Translations under genes and position numbers: made by a program | Assembly (NCBI GenBank): GCA_021158465.1 | Contig: JAGGUN010000022.1 | Span: 1 to 64,000 of the forward strand | Source of the DNA: a bacterium | GTDB taxonomy: Bacteria > UBP14 > UBA6098 > 4484-93 | DNA: 64,000 bases | Direction: 5' to 3' | The notes under the pieces: model-generated | The model's database searches: none | What the model saw: only the letters and a program-made list of their open reading frames with translations | What the model was told of the DNA's origin: nothing | Shown: in pieces, positions 10,961 to 42,051 of the stretch | How positions within the stretch are numbered: position 1 is the stretch's first letter | Layout of the letters: every line of letters starts with the position of its first letter

Positions 10961-10993
10961 AAAAAACCCCGCTGCCTCCAACGGCAACGGGGT
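10961..10993 (-). terminator. Rho-independent terminator of the four-repeat protein gene
   Basis: The stem ACCCCG...CGGGGT (10966-10971 with 10988-10993), extended by TGCC...GGCA (10973-10976 with 10983-10986) around one mismatch, is followed on the minus strand by TTTTTT. It is the clearest intrinsic terminator in the window. Confidence 0.9.
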
Positions 10994-11022
10994 CTTGCGG
11001 TTTGCAAGAGGAAGAGATAAAC

Positions 11023-12078
11023 TTATCTGCCGCTACCCTCTACAATGCGCAGAGCCCGTGCTGCAAGCCTTCTGGCAACAAGCGCCTCAGCAACAGCACC
11101 ACGATAGTTCCCCTCCTCGAAGAAGGAGTTTGCATTCTCCAGATGGGTGTTTGCCTCATCGAGAAGAGCAATTGCAGACTCATCTCCACTCTCTTCTATA
11201 ACAGTAGTTGCCTCCTCGATGAACCCTGTCACCTCCTCGATAACACGGGCAGCCTCCTCCTCGGTTACCTCATGTGGACCAGAGTGGATAATCCTCAGGG
11301 CACGTCTTACCATCTCTCTGGCACGCATCGTGAGACCCATCGCTGCGCGGTAGTTCCCCTCATCGTAAGCCGAATGTGCGTTTTCCTGCATCTCTGTTGC
11401 ACGCTCGAGAAGCGAGATCGCTTCCTCGTTGCCGCTTTCTGTTATCTCCTCGGTGGAACTCTCTATTATTTCATCGGTTCTCTCAAGAGCAGCAAGGACT
11501 CTATCAGGGTCAGGTTCTGCGGGATCCTCAACGAGTCTCAGAGCGCGGATGACAAGCTTACGAGCTCGTCTGGTAAGGGCAAATGCACGCTCGAACTGCT
11601 CATCCTCCAGCGCTTCCCTGGCATCTTCCTGAATCTCGACTGCTCGCTCGAGCATAGCCTGTGCATCCTCATTGTCGGACTCCGTTATCACAGGCTCAGC
11701 CCTCTCGATGAGCCTGTCCGTTTCCCGAACAGCGCGAGCCGCCATCTCAGGTGTTACCCTGCCGTGATGATCGCCATCAAGAAACGCAACCACCCTGCGA
11801 ACCATGTTGCGAGCCTGCATCGTCAGACGAAGAGCCGTCCTGCAATTGCCATCCTCGAGCATTTCCGCCGCTCGACCCTGCATATCGTTCGCACGCTCGA
11901 ATATCTCGTGAACCATCCGCACATCTGACTCCTCAACACGAGGGGCAACTTCATCGATAAGCCCCTGCGTTACCTCGAGCTGTTCCTCTGCCTCACGACA
12001 GACATCAGGCGGGTCAGCAGAGGCAAATCCAACAAACAGGAAAGCGAACAGAACCGACAAAAGAACCAACCGCTTCAT
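11023..12078 (-). CDS. Exported protein made of four tandem helical repeats
   Basis: A 351-residue protein with a signal peptide (1-21, ending ASA) and then four homologous repeats of about 73-76 residues at roughly 27-102, 113-185, 194-266 and 276-348. Each repeat runs: helix with ETD.LIE-type residues, an ITES(G/D)NE turn, a helix LLERA.E.QE.A, a (D/E)EGNYR.A turn and a basic helix (A.LTMRAREMVRRALRI). The repeats are highly charged and predicted all-helical. I do not recognise a named family. Its location is periplasmic or secreted; a structural or binding scaffold is a guess. The ATG at 12076-12078 follows a perfect AGGAGGTG. The gene is a single unit with a strong terminator and a possible sigma-54-like site upstream. 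Confidence 0.75.
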   Translation of the reverse strand: MKRLVLLSVLFAFLFVGFASADPPDVCREAEEQLEVTQGLIDEVAPRVEESDVRMVHEIFERANDMQGRAAEMLEDGNCRTALRLTMQARNMVRRVVAFLDGDHHGRVTPEMAARAVRETDRLIERAEPVITESDNEDAQAMLERAVEIQEDAREALEDEQFERAFALTRRARKLVIRALRLVEDPAEPDPDRVLAALERTDEIIESSTEEITESGNEEAISLLERATEMQENAHSAYDEGNYRAAMGLTMRAREMVRRALRIIHSGPHEVTEEEAARVIEEVTGFIEEATTVIEESGDESAIALLDEANTHLENANSFFEEGNYRGAVAEALVARRLAARALRIVEGSGR

Positions 12079-12120
12079 CTTGCACCTCCTTTTTAAGTTT
12101 TCAACCGTCCACAGAACAAG

Positions 12121-12250: not shown

Positions 12251-12649
12251 TTATAGGGACAGGTGTGCCTTCAAGGTGGAGAGAAACTCTTCTGGGTTAT
12301 CCGGTTTTACCCGGAGCAATTGCTTATCCGTGAGAATAGATATAGAGTTATCCTTTTGTAGTTCGGTTGAGCGGATGCTCGAATACAGGACAGTTTTCTT
12401 TCCGATGGATTTCCTGATCACGAGTTTATTGGTCTTCAGGGTGTATGAGCGGTCGAGTCGGATGTAATTGTAGAGCATGAGTGTGATATAGAGTATGAAG
12501 CTGACACCTCTTACTATTGGGTCTGTGACGGTGAAAAGAAGGGCAAACAGTACCCCTGTCAGGATGATAGCTACAGAGACAAAGAGAACCTGGTCATGGA
12601 AGGAGAGGTATGCCCAAAACCTCTTATTTAAATCCTCTATTTCTTTCAT
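12251..12649 (-). CDS. Small membrane protein with PH-like domain
   Basis: A 132-residue protein with two membrane helices near the N-terminus (about residues 20-40 and 45-63), then a soluble part (about 66-132) whose pattern (YTLKTNKLVIRKSIGKKT followed by a strand, SIRSTEL and a final helix with PEEFLSTLKAHL) resembles the bacterial PH (bPH2/YdbT) domains of membrane proteins. Its function is unknown. It overlaps the 3' end of glyS by 26 bases and is the last gene of the long minus-strand run. Confidence 0.65.
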   Translation of the reverse strand: MKEIEDLNKRFWAYLSFHDQVLFVSVAIILTGVLFALLFTVTDPIVRGVSFILYITLMLYNYIRLDRSYTLKTNKLVIRKSIGKKTVLYSSIRSTELQKDNSISILTDKQLLRVKPDNPEEFLSTLKAHLSL

Positions 12650-13957: not shown

Positions 13958-15505
13958 CTAATATCTTACCCCTATTGTTGCTGTGAAAAATGGAGTTCTT
14001 GCATCGCTTGGACAGAACATCTGCCAGATGTATATTCCTGGTAACACGAGCTTACCCTCCTTGTCTCTGCCGTCCCAGGGCTCATCGTTCCGGATGGTTG
14101 CTATGAGGTTCCCCTCCATGTCGAATATCTTGACCAGAGTGTTCAGGTTCGGTGTGAATGTGACATAGTCGTTATATCCGTCGCTGTTTGGGGTAATTAT
14201 TCGGGTTGAGCTCTTTGCAGGATATGGGCATTCCTCCGGGCAGAGATAAGCTATCTGGTTGATGGAGATATTGTCTGTTGAATCGCAGTCATCTGTGGTG
14301 GGGAATACCTCTGTCTTGCTTGTTAGCTTGTCGAACTCTTGGCAGGTTGCCTTTGTCGGCTCGCGGACGAGGAATATTTTCTCCTCGCCTGGAAGGATTG
14401 AGTCTGTGTGGAATGTGTGGGATGTTTCCCCGTCGATGATTGATCTCTCCAAAAACTTCTGGATGATTTCCACATCGTAGGCTGGGATATCGCCTTTGTT
14501 AAAGATATGGATGAGCAGGGTTACCGTGTCCATTGTGGACAGTCTTGCTCCGTGGGTACCGGAGATTTCCTGTCTTATGGAGAGGTCGTAGCAGTTCGAA
14601 TCAACCCCGCAGATGGTTGTAAGGAACGCGTGGTTATCGGAGTATGTTCTCTCGAGACTATCGGAGGTGATGGTTGCCACATCGAAGAAACTGTCTGGTA
14701 GAAGGTGTGAGTGTATTGTGGTAGATAGAACGATAGAATCCACCTGGTCTGGGATAAGTGCTGGGATCTCCCAGATGATGGAGCCTCCGGTGGAATCGAT
14801 TATCGGATATGACGAAGAAATGCTTGTTATTCCTATATTTCCACCGAGATTTTCACTTAAAAGTATGTTCTCCACAGGGGTTTCACCGTTATTTCCAAAG
14901 TGAATGGTGTAGCTGATGGTACCTGTTTCATCACAGCCATAGGAGGACTCGGATTTGCTTACCCAGAGGTTTGGGATGAATGTTGGTAGTGTATCCTTGC
15001 AGAATGTAGTGTTGTCGGTAAAGCTCTCGAACTCGGTGTGATTGTAGAGGCATGTGCCTGCCCGGAGGGTTATGCAGTTGGTGCCTGATGGTGTTGGGTC
15101 TGGGAGGGAAGTTACATCGATATTTGCCAGAATTGAGATAGAAAAGCTCTCACCTGATGGAATTCGCGGGATGGAGAATATGTATGTATTATCCGTATGT
15201 TCTGCAGGGTATACGCCGGGAGGTAATATAGGGGGCTCATCGTGGATTGGAAGAATGTAGTGGTCGGGCAACTGAACGATAAGCGTGCATGATGATGCTT
15301 CTGTGTTTCCGCTGTTCGAGCCGACGATGATATACTGGAGTGGAAAGAGTGAGTTTGTATCACTGACTGTGTATCTGTCGCAGGGGCCGGCAAGCTCCGA
15401 CGGGTCGGTGTAGATTCTGACACCGAGCGCCTGGGAGCTTACGCCTCCGAGGGCAACGGTTGGAGTGAGGATGATTGCAAGTGTGATGAAGATATTCTTT
15501 CTCAT
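13958..15505 (-). CDS. Secreted multi-domain protein with C-terminal gliding/T9SS type B-like domain
   Basis: A 515-residue exported protein. A signal peptide (1-19) is followed by DUF11-like beta-sandwich repeats typical of surface adhesins (strings such as NTEASSCTLIVQLPDHYILP and GDIPAYDVEI). The C-terminal ~80 residues start with ITPNSDGYNDYV and contain VKIFDMEGNLIATI, WDGRDKEGK and PGIYIW, the pattern of T9SS type B sorting or FlgD-Ig-like domains. The open frame runs far upstream, but the ATG at 15503-15505 begins the signal peptide. It lies 11 bases after another T9SS-type protein and 11 bases before glyS. Confidence 0.75.
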   Translation of the reverse strand: MRKNIFITLAIILTPTVALGGVSSQALGVRIYTDPSELAGPCDRYTVSDTNSLFPLQYIIVGSNSGNTEASSCTLIVQLPDHYILPIHDEPPILPPGVYPAEHTDNTYIFSIPRIPSGESFSISILANIDVTSLPDPTPSGTNCITLRAGTCLYNHTEFESFTDNTTFCKDTLPTFIPNLWVSKSESSYGCDETGTISYTIHFGNNGETPVENILLSENLGGNIGITSISSSYPIIDSTGGSIIWEIPALIPDQVDSIVLSTTIHSHLLPDSFFDVATITSDSLERTYSDNHAFLTTICGVDSNCYDLSIRQEISGTHGARLSTMDTVTLLIHIFNKGDIPAYDVEIIQKFLERSIIDGETSHTFHTDSILPGEEKIFLVREPTKATCQEFDKLTSKTEVFPTTDDCDSTDNISINQIAYLCPEECPYPAKSSTRIITPNSDGYNDYVTFTPNLNTLVKIFDMEGNLIATIRNDEPWDGRDKEGKLVLPGIYIWQMFCPSDARTPFFTATIGVRY

Positions 15506-15516
15506 AATATGTTGTT

Positions 15517-16659
15517 CTATTTCAGTAGTACAGCCTTTTGGGTGGTTCGTACGGGGCCGGATACGAACTCGACAATATAAACTCCCGATCTCGCCTCCTC
15601 CGGGTGCCAGATAACTGAGTTTTCTCTCTCGAACGATGCGATTTCCCTTCCTGTTATATCGTATATTCTGAAATCTCCTGGGTAATCTGCTCTTATGTGG
15701 ACGGATGAGTTGAACGGGTTCGGGAAGATGGAAATCGAAATATCCTTCGGTGATAGAGGGATCTCGTTCACCGTGGATGTATCTCCTCGTGCCTCGTCGG
15801 TGGCGGCGCTGATTGTTTCGAGGTCCTCGCCGCAGACGAAGGCGAATGATATTGTGTCGGTTTCTCCGCCTGCAGGAATATCGTTCAGGATTATAACGGA
15901 GTACACGGCACAATCTGTATCCGAGATAGAACTATCCCAGGTGGGGGATATGATAAGCTCAAGGATATCCTCAGGGGAGTTTCCGTTTCCATACCAGTTG
16001 TTGAAGTTACCAAAGAGGACAGGGAGGGTGTCGGTGAGTATAGCGAACCCAGTCCAGATGGAGGAGGTAGGGTCATATTCGTATAGAAGAAGCCTTGTCG
16101 AGTCCAGCCCGCAGTAGTCGTTGTTGAAGTCGTATGCAGGAATGTCGGCGTCGTAGAAGAAGAGCAGCTTCCCACCTGTTAGATTCTCGGCTGAATTGTT
16201 GGAGAGCAATATATTGAGTTTTATCCAGTGCTCGTTTGACTTGTAGGATAACACCATCTGATAGATGGTGATGCCGATGGTTGTATCCTGGAATGAGAAT
16301 GAGGATACAGCTGATGTGGAGTCCTCGAACGCCTCGAGAGAATCCATTGTTGAGAATGTTCCAGAAGATAGTTCTCCCTCATCATTTGCTTGCCCGAAAG
16401 CGGTATGTTCAGGAAATTCTTCGAAGTAGAGGGCAAAGAATGCCCGCCAGAGATTGTCGGTGGAGGAGGTTCCGAGGTTGTGATAGACAAATCCGCCTGG
16501 TAGATGATCATCCACGCGGAGCGAGGTTGCTCCGGTATTGTGCAGGAAGAGCGTCTTGGAAGAGGCAAGAGGTTTTGCGGTATATGAAAGGAAACCCCCA
16601 CCGAGAACAAGCATGATGGGGAGTGTCTTGCGTAAAGAAGGTATCGGAGCTAATAGCAC
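15517..16659 (-). CDS. Secreted protein with C-terminal T9SS type A sorting domain
   Basis: A 380-residue exported protein of unknown function, rich in Ser/Thr/Asp and beta structure. A hydrophobic N-terminal segment (about residues 13-30) follows the basic LRKT. The last ~85 residues are a clear type A sorting domain: IFPNPFNSSVHI, DFRIYDITGREIASF, SGVYIVEF and a closing KAVLLK. The start is a GTG that overlaps the stop of the upstream small membrane protein by 10 bases. An internal ATG at 16612-16614 would shorten the signal peptide too much. Placement in the ribosomal transcript is unusual. Confidence 0.72.
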   Translation of the reverse strand: MLLAPIPSLRKTLPIMLVLGGGFLSYTAKPLASSKTLFLHNTGATSLRVDDHLPGGFVYHNLGTSSTDNLWRAFFALYFEEFPEHTAFGQANDEGELSSGTFSTMDSLEAFEDSTSAVSSFSFQDTTIGITIYQMVLSYKSNEHWIKLNILLSNNSAENLTGGKLLFFYDADIPAYDFNNDYCGLDSTRLLLYEYDPTSSIWTGFAILTDTLPVLFGNFNNWYGNGNSPEDILELIISPTWDSSISDTDCAVYSVIILNDIPAGGETDTISFAFVCGEDLETISAATDEARGDTSTVNEIPLSPKDISISIFPNPFNSSVHIRADYPGDFRIYDITGREIASFERENSVIWHPEEARSGVYIVEFVSGPVRTTQKAVLLK

Positions 16660-39288: not shown

Positions 39289-42015
39289 CTATTTGATATA
39301 GATGAGCTTTGTGCTTATACTTTCCGCTCCGTCCTTCAGGATGGCAATGTAGGTCCCGGTGGGTGAGTTGCTCGCGTTCCAAGAGGCTGTTTGCCAGCCG
39401 GATGATGGTATGACAGGAACTGAGGCAACCTTCTCACCGGTGATATTGTAGATGGATAGACTGGGGGAGTTGCCCGTGGAGTAGAACCTTATTGAGACTG
39501 TCGAGTTGAACGGATTGGGGTATGCTGTTATAACGGGTGACGAGGGGATCATTGGGAAATCCACCTCTTTTATCTCTGAGAAATCGTATCCGACGAACTC
39601 GAGCATCTTCCTGACGAACATCCATCTCGGAGTGAACGAAGGAAGCTCATTGTGAATACATTCTATCCCGAACCCGAGATAGAATACCGTGTTGTTGAGT
39701 GTGATATCGACATATCTCGTTGCGGCAAAGGAGCCAGAAGTGTCCCCTTCATAGGTGAGGATACCAACGGCACCGTCCGTTGGGGTGCATCCGGATGGAC
39801 TATCTGGGGAATATGCTCCACCGGAGAGAACGATACGGATGCTATCTGTTACTGGGTCGCCCTCGATTCCCGACAGTATAACCCTGCCAGCATCGTCTAC
39901 CGTGTGTTCGGCGTGGATTATATCTGAGAATAGGGAGGTCCCTCCCATATCCTCGCCGATGTTCTCTCCTGATAGTATTAGAACCTTGTTCCCTTCGTTG
40001 TAAAAGTTGGTGATAAGTGAGAGCTCTGTTTCCGTTATCGATGTGTCACGGACAGTTCCTGTGAACCAGATGACCGTGCGGTATTTGTTCAGCTCCTCCT
40101 GAGAGATAGCCCCTTGGTTCTTGTTCCATATATCGTAGACTAACCTGTTGGTCAGAAGCGCCGTATTGTAATACGATATGTTTGTTGTATCGGTCTCAGA
40201 GCCGTTATAGACGAGGATGTCCGGTCGTCCTATCATAAATGTGATATACCCATAGTTGATAGTTCCCTGCTCGGTTGTTAGCCGCCATCTAAAGCGAGCT
40301 TTATGTGCTGGCATATCGGACAGCATCCGAAAGCGTATAGGTGCAGAGTCATTCCTGGCAGTGTCACCGGGGGCGATATCCGGAAAGTCAACATCACCTG
40401 TTATGATCTCCACGGTTGTGTCGGCTGTTGTCAGATGGAGCGTTGCACCTGTTCCCATCATCCAGCCAGGTTCGTTCGCGAATGAGAGGATTATTTCGCC
40501 TGTCTCCCCTGGGTCGACCCTACCATCGAGGTTACCGTCGATATCGGTGCTTTGATACCCTACGAATGAGAGTTCAGGGTATATCACCTGCCCGATAGCC
40601 TTGAATACATTCACGCGTCCCCTGCCAAGTCTTCCCTCATATCCCGGGTTGAGGGAATCTATGGGGTCGGCAGAATCAAGCAGTCTGTTGTATACCCAAT
40701 GGTTTGATGAGTCGGGGAAATATGCTCGGACAAGTGCGCCACATCCCGCAGCAACAGGTGATGCCATGGATGTTCCGTCCCAGCTCGTGAAGGAGTCGAC
40801 TGGGATGGTGCTGTATATCGAGACACCAGGTGCGGATAGTTCTATCCAGCTGCCATAGTTGGAGAAGTATGCCTTGTGGTCGTTCTCGTCGGTTGCGGCA
40901 ACGGATATGACATGATTAAAGTTAGCAGGATAGAATCGTGCTGAAACATCATCATTGCCAGCACCACCGACAAGTAGAACGCCTGCTGCCCAAGCGTCCT
41001 GACAAGCCTCGTTCTCGTCCGGGTCGGGGTGGGAGCTGCCGTAGCTCATGTTTATCACCTTTGCGCCCATATCGATTGCATACCTAAAACAGCGCAGAAG
41101 GGCGATTGTCTGCATACCACCAAGGGTGCCGTCGTTCGGGTAGTAGCCTGCTCGCAGGCACATAAGCTTCGAGCTCCAATTGCACCCTGCCATACCGTAT
41201 CCGTTGTTCCCAAGCGCTGCCATAATCCCGTTTGTGTGTGTCCCGTGTCCGTCCAGTATAAAATCTGACGGGTCACTGTCGGGATCGTCGCCATCCTCGA
41301 TAAGTACACCGTCGTTGTATGCGTCTGGGGCGTTATCGACGAAATCGTATCCGATGAGGTCGTCGATGACCCCGTTGAGGTCGTTGTCGAGCCCATCGAA
41401 ATCATCGACATCGAACGGGACACCATCACCATCCAAATCCTCGCCAGGGTTCACCCATATGTTCGGATAGAGGTCGGGATGACTCCAATTGACACCAGAG
41501 TCGATCCCCGTTATTATAACGGAGCTATCACCTGTTGTTGTCCCCCAGGCTCGATCAAGTCCGATTTTCGGTGCCCACCACTGCCGGGAATAACCAGGGT
41601 CATCGGGTGTTACCGGAAGATACAAAAGCGGGATAATATAGTCAGGAAGAGAATATTTTACGAACGGTAGCTTCTCAAACCGCTTTGCAACTTCCGCAGC
41701 ATCAAACCTATCAGGGAAGTGGAAAACAACCCTGTTTGACCAGTGAGCCCATTTCTCCTCGAACCTGCCCAGAGACCCGAGAAGCGGCTCCCAGTCGTAT
41801 GCCTCAATCTCTTCCAGGAGTCTATCCAGCTCGGGAATGCCTGAGCGAACCACACCATCCTGAACGGTCAGTTTCTCCTGAATATCGAGGGAATAGTCGA
41901 AAGCGACGCGGACGACCCCCGGCGTGTATCTATCCGGCGGTGAGGGGTTATTGGCGTATATGGGTAAAGCAAGAAGCACCAAGGTTAGAACGGTGGCAGT
42001 GACGCTCTTTTGCAT
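39289..42015 (-). CDS. Secreted subtilisin-like serine protease with T9SS sorting domain
   Basis: A 908-residue exported S8 protease. The signal peptide (1-21) is followed by a prodomain-like region (about 25-130) and the catalytic domain, with D172 (GIDSGVNWSHPDL), H257 (GHGTHTNGIMA) and S416 (GTSMASPVAAG). An acidic Asp-rich loop between D172 and H257 (GEDLDGDGVPFDVDDFDGLD) looks calcium-binding. The C-terminus is a type A sorting domain (AYPNPFNSTVSIRFYS, LSIYNITGEKVASV, GTYIAIL). The ATG at 42013-42015 is chosen for its AAGGAG site and signal peptide. It is the first gene of a transcript with mtnA. Confidence 0.93.
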   Translation of the reverse strand: MQKSVTATVLTLVLLALPIYANNPSPPDRYTPGVVRVAFDYSLDIQEKLTVQDGVVRSGIPELDRLLEEIEAYDWEPLLGSLGRFEEKWAHWSNRVVFHFPDRFDAAEVAKRFEKLPFVKYSLPDYIIPLLYLPVTPDDPGYSRQWWAPKIGLDRAWGTTTGDSSVIITGIDSGVNWSHPDLYPNIWVNPGEDLDGDGVPFDVDDFDGLDNDLNGVIDDLIGYDFVDNAPDAYNDGVLIEDGDDPDSDPSDFILDGHGTHTNGIMAALGNNGYGMAGCNWSSKLMCLRAGYYPNDGTLGGMQTIALLRCFRYAIDMGAKVINMSYGSSHPDPDENEACQDAWAAGVLLVGGAGNDDVSARFYPANFNHVISVAATDENDHKAYFSNYGSWIELSAPGVSIYSTIPVDSFTSWDGTSMASPVAAGCGALVRAYFPDSSNHWVYNRLLDSADPIDSLNPGYEGRLGRGRVNVFKAIGQVIYPELSFVGYQSTDIDGNLDGRVDPGETGEIILSFANEPGWMMGTGATLHLTTADTTVEIITGDVDFPDIAPGDTARNDSAPIRFRMLSDMPAHKARFRWRLTTEQGTINYGYITFMIGRPDILVYNGSETDTTNISYYNTALLTNRLVYDIWNKNQGAISQEELNKYRTVIWFTGTVRDTSITETELSLITNFYNEGNKVLILSGENIGEDMGGTSLFSDIIHAEHTVDDAGRVILSGIEGDPVTDSIRIVLSGGAYSPDSPSGCTPTDGAVGILTYEGDTSGSFAATRYVDITLNNTVFYLGFGIECIHNELPSFTPRWMFVRKMLEFVGYDFSEIKEVDFPMIPSSPVITAYPNPFNSTVSIRFYSTGNSPSLSIYNITGEKVASVPVIPSSGWQTASWNASNSPTGTYIAILKDGAESISTKLIYIK

Positions 42016-42051
42016 CTTCGCTCCTTCATTTCCGGGACACAATTTTGGTTA

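Follow-up and report, generated by a model that had tools for sequence, protein, structure and literature searches.

AlgK and AlgE form the split version of a plan in which a periplasmic helical scaffold serves an outer-membrane β-barrel. The plan also exists in fused form: PgaA consists of TPRs plus a barrel, and TPR proteins of this type are found again in the operons for PNAG, alginate, cellulose, and Pel (PMC9384988). In T11SS/Slam (DUF560, PF04575 SlipAM), helical repeats on the periplasmic side go together with an outer-membrane barrel, and client genes adjoin (PMC8406197). In such systems, helical repeats in the periplasm act as scaffolds for partners and may lead the polymer or the protein to the barrel (PMC9384988; PMC8406197).

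We describe here a family of helical-repeat proteins and a family of outer-membrane barrels that probably belong together. A member of the first is encoded in the window, i.e., the whole stretch of 64,000 nucleotides that was analyzed. Compared with PgaA and AlgK/AlgE, the plan is the same, but the units are three-helix bundles of ~82 residues instead of 34-residue TPRs. Helical repeats and a barrel are likewise the components of T11SS/Slam; in our case, however, the helical repeats mostly form a protein of their own, made of three-helix bundles, and no scanned barrel exceeds the SlipAM cut-off. T11SS was described for Proteobacteria, whereas the named records of the repeat family are two Zodletone MAGs, which provided the only 2 loci found in a scan of genome contigs. 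Both families are nameless in Pfam and NCBIfam, and the proposed device is one that works like the known repeat-plus-barrel devices but from different parts. No description of the repeat-barrel pair was found in the open-access full texts searched.

RESULTS

A single-copy gene for a putatively exported repeat protein

The initial annotation had delimited an open reading frame at exactly the coordinates that we find, and we add its strand. The gene and its immediate surroundings comprise the following features.

12251 to 12649, minus strand: neighboring gene for a candidate bacterial PH-domain protein (bPH_4, 23.0 bits for a cut-off of 22.9)
12083 to 12091, minus strand: ribosome binding site AAGGAGGTG, read from the sequence, four bases before the ATG
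11023 to 12078, minus strand: gene of the four-repeat, putatively exported protein, an ORF of 351 amino acids plus stop with its ATG at 12078
12016 to 12078, minus strand: signal-peptide-like N-terminus, residues 1 to 21, recognized by eye; residues 2 to 20 have a pLDDT below 50
10961 to 10997, minus strand: intrinsic terminator, −25.9 kcal/mol, the strongest candidate in the window

The ribosome site had been called perfect and the terminator the best of the window, and both descriptions are borne out: AAGGAGGTG is an ideal site, and the terminator ranks first among 134 hairpin-plus-T-run candidates, the runner-up reaching −14.5 kcal/mol. That the gene stands alone is plausible: 172 nt lie between it and the upstream bPH gene, and 100 nt, including the terminator, lie between it and ispF downstream. 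Beyond the bPH gene lies glyS, and dapF follows ispF past the terminator. These two names and ispF were assigned by eye; dnaB, udg, glyS, transketolase, amidohydrolase, purN, ispF, dapF, and the sigma-54-type response regulator are putative gene names throughout this work. Export of the protein likewise stands as a judgment by eye, the putative signal peptide ending in ASA before a D. No second copy of the gene was found in the same genome (G000), where it is thus single copy. TAtT (PF16811) is absent from this genome.

The PH-like gene also adjoins the repeat gene in G001 and, as judged by eye, in G005 and G007, where it sits between dnaB and the repeat gene. Near the repeat gene of the window, two further exported proteins (13958 to 15913 and 15517 to 16659, minus strand) appear, by eye, to carry FlgD-like or T9SS-type C-terminal tails.

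Four three-helix units with a period of ~82 residues

The mature protein was aligned with itself at offsets of 20 to 239 residues. Scores peaked at offsets 163 (score 61), 164 (54), 26 (42), 82 (40), and 81 (35), while the best score in 1000 shuffles was 42, with a mean of −21. As the peaks fall at 163, 164, 82, and 81 and the top ones rise above the shuffles, the period is ~82 residues and not ~75, the length given in the initial annotation. AlphaFold2, used for the structure prediction that the annotation had proposed as a check, gave 12 helices in four groups of three, so that four helical repeats do fill the mature protein:

11779 to 12009, minus strand: unit 1, predicted helices 24-49, 54-75, and 79-100
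11527 to 11751, minus strand: unit 2, predicted helices 110-133, 137-158, and 162-184
11284 to 11508, minus strand: unit 3, predicted helices 191-214, 218-239, and 243-265
11035 to 11262, minus strand: unit 4, predicted helices 273-297, 300-321, and 325-348

The motif rhythm noted earlier does exist, though unevenly: ESDNE/ESGNEE and N[YC]R are confined to some of the units. For the full protein of 351 residues, with an alignment of three sequences as input, the mean pLDDT was 85 and the pTM 0.36; units 3 and 4 alone yielded a pLDDT of 93.6 and a pTM of 0.51. Thus, each unit is predicted with confidence to be a three-helix bundle, whereas the pTM values leave the placement of one bundle relative to the next without confidence. 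The protein is rich in E (17%) and R (12%), poor in His (2.1%) and Cys (0.6%), and has a pI of 4.6. Of its two cysteines, both in unit 1, residue 27 lies at the N-terminal end of helix 1 and residue 79 at that of helix 3, and both are retained in the same-genus genome G001; a disulfide between them is possible.

In agreement with the annotation, the repeat protein has no recognized family: nothing exceeded the cut-offs of Pfam and NCBIfam, and searches of Pfam, NCBIfam, and PDB sequences yielded no known repeat family of assigned function as a strong match. The PDB sequence search returned designed helical proteins and TPR29, with a best E value of 0.0005. TPR membership was rejected, with TPR_8 scoring 11.5 bits against a cut-off of 25.7 and a period of ~82 residues with three helices per unit in place of 34-residue, two-helix repeats. 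VWA_3_C, FliS, HEPN, DUF1771, and others all scored below their Pfam cut-offs, as did DUF357 (16.2 versus 29.4 bits). SMBP (PF16785) and the SoxAX-binding protein (SAXB, NF052674) are exported helical hairpins with spaced Ala residues; the repeat protein, with several units and few His residues, falls far below both cut-offs (SMBP, 13.1 bits versus 29 in Pfam; SAXB, 23.3 versus 95 in NCBIfam). Three of 10 relatives exceeded some cut-off, namely Arg_decarb_HB (30.4/23.3), HEPN (23.3/22), and DUF1771 (40.1/28.7). These families are mutually unrelated and were hit once each, and we consider them chance matches of amphipathic helices.

The best fold matches are single three-helix bundles. They include the uranyl binder 4fzo, which superposes on one unit (Z 11.4, rmsd 2.3 over 80 residues), and the DUF357 protein 2pmr does so as well (Z 10.5, rmsd 2.1, 74 residues aligned); Z values below 13 may, by the tool's own warning, reflect only an arrangement common among helical bundles. 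Both are single-domain proteins, unlike the multiunit protein studied here. As to spectrin-like three-helix repeats, the EzrA cytoplasmic domain reached Z values of 9.0 to 9.5 but with rmsd values of 15 to 40. There was no Pfam spectrin match, nor a spectrin entry among the fold matches listed, and Foldseek found no match at an E value of ≤0.001 with either the full model or units 3 and 4.

The repeat family recurs in at least four phyla

For the repeat family, a profile (A1) was built from 12 members, with rows from nine relatives in the window's own phylum and from G081 and G021. At an E value of ≤1e-6 it matched 11 of 17 genomes of the window's phylum, 5/5 of the phylum of G081, and 3/4 of the phylum of G021, in each of which the matches in row genomes arise by construction, as well as 48 of 82 genomes of the phylum of G060, which contributed no row. 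At E ≤ 1e-10, the family is present in 30 of 386 sampled genomes. It recurs in at least four phyla.

An HMM of the unit, grown from the four units of the window, gathered 131 units in 26 proteins. There are 3 to 6 units per protein: 4 in the window, 5 in others of its phylum, and 6 in the phylum of G060 and in G089/G315. Relative to the five-unit relatives, the window protein misses the third unit. Proteins of ~760 amino acids with many units of this helical kind are found at L097 and L098 (G250 and G384), neither genome having a barrel match.

A nameless outer-membrane barrel is the probable partner

The putative partner was judged from its sequence to be an outer-membrane β-barrel by a signal peptide, an alternating pattern, and a C-terminal aromatic residue. 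Barrels of different lineages are related (BLASTP E values from 1e-4 to 1e-37, with some pairs weaker) and share a D-T near the N-terminus, P-D, G-x-R, and E-x-H. None of the barrels scanned exceeded the cut-off of a family in Pfam or NCBIfam. The barrel profile retrieved from the PDB a single antibody chain, at an E value of 0.12. Identity with SlipAM (PF04575) was rejected: one of nine barrels of profile A4 had a match, at 18.1 bits for a cut-off of 22, and there was none in the barrel of the window's genome or in 4/4 barrels with a helical head.

Profile A4 was built solely from barrels of other phyla. It identified barrels in 12 of 17 genomes of the window's phylum, and one of them is in the window's own genome:

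G000:C40:40878-42092, minus strand: barrel gene, matched by A4 over 40878-42020 with an E value of 1e-28

A4 contains no barrel of this phylum, and its finding of one in this very genome bears out a prediction of the pairing. Behind the barrel gene, genomes of the window's phylum have an amidohydrolase-like gene and, in many cases, a purN-like one (L113:6408-9075 in G000:C40; L115 to L120; L123), a conserved order with no obvious functional link. A wider profile (A5), which holds no barrels of the phylum of G060, detected barrels in 25 of the 386 genomes and, at E ≤ 1e-4, in 37 of the 82 genomes of the latter phylum.

In the phylum of G060 and in G089/G315, the barrels have an N-terminal helical part, as judged by eye. 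Five of 10 such heads matched the unit HMM at E ≤ 0.001 (best, 6.4e-5), the best control E values being 0.057 in 200 shuffles and 0.17 in 10 reversed pieces. A profile-profile comparison of the barrel head with the repeat unit returned a probability of 80% (P 1.4e-5) over 34 columns, compared with ≤0.5% in 100 column shuffles. Because the heads match both the HMM and the profile, the barrels of these lineages may have a single repeat hairpin fused to them. The 34-column hairpin could also reflect TPR-like convergence or be a TPR-like hairpin of another origin.

Repeat and barrel genes occur together and often side by side

Among the 386 genomes, 22 have both genes, 8 the repeat gene only, 3 the barrel gene only, and 353 neither; outside the window's phylum, the same sample contains 13 genomes with both, 6 with the repeat gene only, and 0 with the barrel gene only. 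The corresponding numbers for the 82 genomes of the phylum of G060 are 29, 19, and 8, with 26 having neither. For these counts the Fisher values are 3e-26, 9e-20, and 0.0015, all of them overstated because of shared ancestry. Moreover, the A4 and A5 rows from other phyla were picked for their adjoining repeat genes, which makes co-occurrence in the row genomes circular. Evidence free of this circle comes from the window's phylum, the phylum of G060, G089 and G315, and the lack of barrel-only genomes outside the window's phylum in the sample of 386. A barrel is missing from 8 of the 30 genomes with a repeat gene (G011, 89% complete; G016, 59%; G060, G126, G250, G297, G384, and G425, at least 96%), and a repeat gene from 3 of the 25 with a barrel (G009, G014, and G015).

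Outside the window's phylum, both genes are on one contig in 13/13 genomes of the sample that have them, in 7 families, with the matched stretches 40 to 2931 bases apart and at most 528 apart in 11 of the 13. The phylum of G060 has the pair on one contig, 1.2 to 6.8 kb apart, in 14 of 29 genomes and on different contigs in the other 15. At 7 of 8 loci of that phylum read in detail, a large protein of one BLAST cluster is encoded between repeat and barrel, with CarboxypepD_reg, FlgD_ig, and Por_Secre_tail domains in both of the two scanned. A LiaF-like small membrane protein follows the barrel at 5/8 of these loci, and a response regulator precedes the repeat gene at 2/8, as it does in G372 and G274. 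In G021, G125, G089, and G315, the pair is accompanied by a lipoprotein of one BLAST cluster (C5; L099, L100, L048, and L133), for which Pfam gave no family above cut-off in the two members scanned. A client gene common to all lineages is lacking: some have a lipoprotein gene beside the pair, some a gene for a CarboxypepD_reg surface protein, and some have neither.

In the window's phylum, separated genes share addresses

In the window's own phylum, repeat and barrel genes are on different contigs in 9/9 genomes with both. They nevertheless use the same two addresses in different species. Divergent from the N-half of transketolase, there is a repeat gene in G008 and G016 and a barrel gene in G010 and G015; after glyS, there is a repeat gene in G000 and G001, past the bPH gene, and a barrel gene in G008. 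The neighbors that define these addresses are homologous, with 72 to 85% identity for transketolase and 60% for glyS between G000 and G008. The sharing of both addresses across species suggests that an ancestral repeat-barrel operon was split, with different members staying behind, which is the simplest account of the gene orders. In such a case of split genes, the neighbors in the window's genome alone would have missed the barrel partner.

DISCUSSION

The pairing of the repeat protein with the barrel is probable. The protein would be exported to the periplasm, where its four three-helix bundles would be chained into a semi-flexible rod. This rod would be the periplasmic partner of a dedicated outer-membrane β-barrel, encoded elsewhere in the window's genome, and would dock on the periplasmic side of the barrel. 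There it would receive a client and hand it to the barrel for export; candidate clients are the surface proteins and lipoproteins whose genes adjoin the pair in other phyla. Because a rod plus a barrel is the plan of PgaA, AlgK/AlgE, and Slam/T11SS, we propose a role in export or assembly, which we regard as possible while stopping short of calling it likely. The best explanation of the whole, offered tentatively and at slightly less than even confidence, is that rod and barrel together make up a device for export or assembly at the outer membrane. The initial annotation had suggested an envelope scaffold or binder; this fits an exported, all-helical repeat protein without a catalytic family but lacked the link to the barrel.

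The strongest rival sees the protein as a passive spacer or tether in the periplasm. As a charged helical rod, it would connect peptidoglycan or the inner membrane with the barrel or with the outer membrane and take no part in export. A rod of bundles with such E and R contents and such a low pI would suit it, the variation from 3 to 6 units between lineages is as expected of a spacer, and the strong ribosome site and terminator agree with it as well. A tether nevertheless leaves unexplained why one particular barrel family is kept adjacent in several phyla and why surface-protein and lipoprotein neighbors recur, and Pfam revealed no known peptidoglycan-binding family in the repeat protein; we consider it unlikely, with perhaps a minor share of the probability. 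An accessory role in the T9SS is a less probable reading. SprA_N was detected in 34 of 37 genomes tested, including the window's own (G000:C31:26528-27781), the misses being G005, G013, and G014, which are 80 to 89% complete, and the pair-adjacent surface proteins of the phylum of G060 have Por_Secre_tail and FlgD_ig tails in 2/2 cases scanned. SprA is also found, however, in G003, G006, and G012, which have neither gene, so that the T9SS manages without the pair there; the lineages tested may all carry a T9SS by ancestry, the SprA test having taken its pair-less genomes from the window's phylum; and no core T9SS gene was recognized by eye beside the pair at the loci examined.

Two further readings have little support. 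A helical scaffold of exopolysaccharide export, comparable to PgaA's TPR part or to AlgK with AlgE, would share the plan of an exported helical repeat and a barrel, fused or split (PMC9384988). No polysaccharide synthase or modifying enzyme was seen by eye to recur in the neighborhoods examined, though, and the units are three-helix bundles of ~82 residues rather than 34-residue TPRs; we therefore deem this reading quite improbable. The least probable reading of all is that this helical protein binds a metal or ligand in the periplasm, in the manner of SmbP or the SoxAX-binding protein. The weak SAXB and SMBP matches and the superposition of the uranyl binder 4fzo point in that direction, but both scores are far below their cut-offs, His and Cys are scarce, and the Z value, being below 13, may mean only a common helical-bundle arrangement.

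Returning to an export or assembly device, a bolder and rather unlikely version is that repeat and barrel are the constant parts of an undescribed translocon found in several diderm phyla, in which the rod would capture surface proteins or lipoproteins and feed them to a new barrel family. In the window's own phylum, the operon would have been broken and both parts kept.

With the pairing, two nameless protein families become one testable unit. If the proposed device is real, it would add to lineages known mainly from metagenomes an outer-membrane machine that uses three-helix bundles instead of TPRs.
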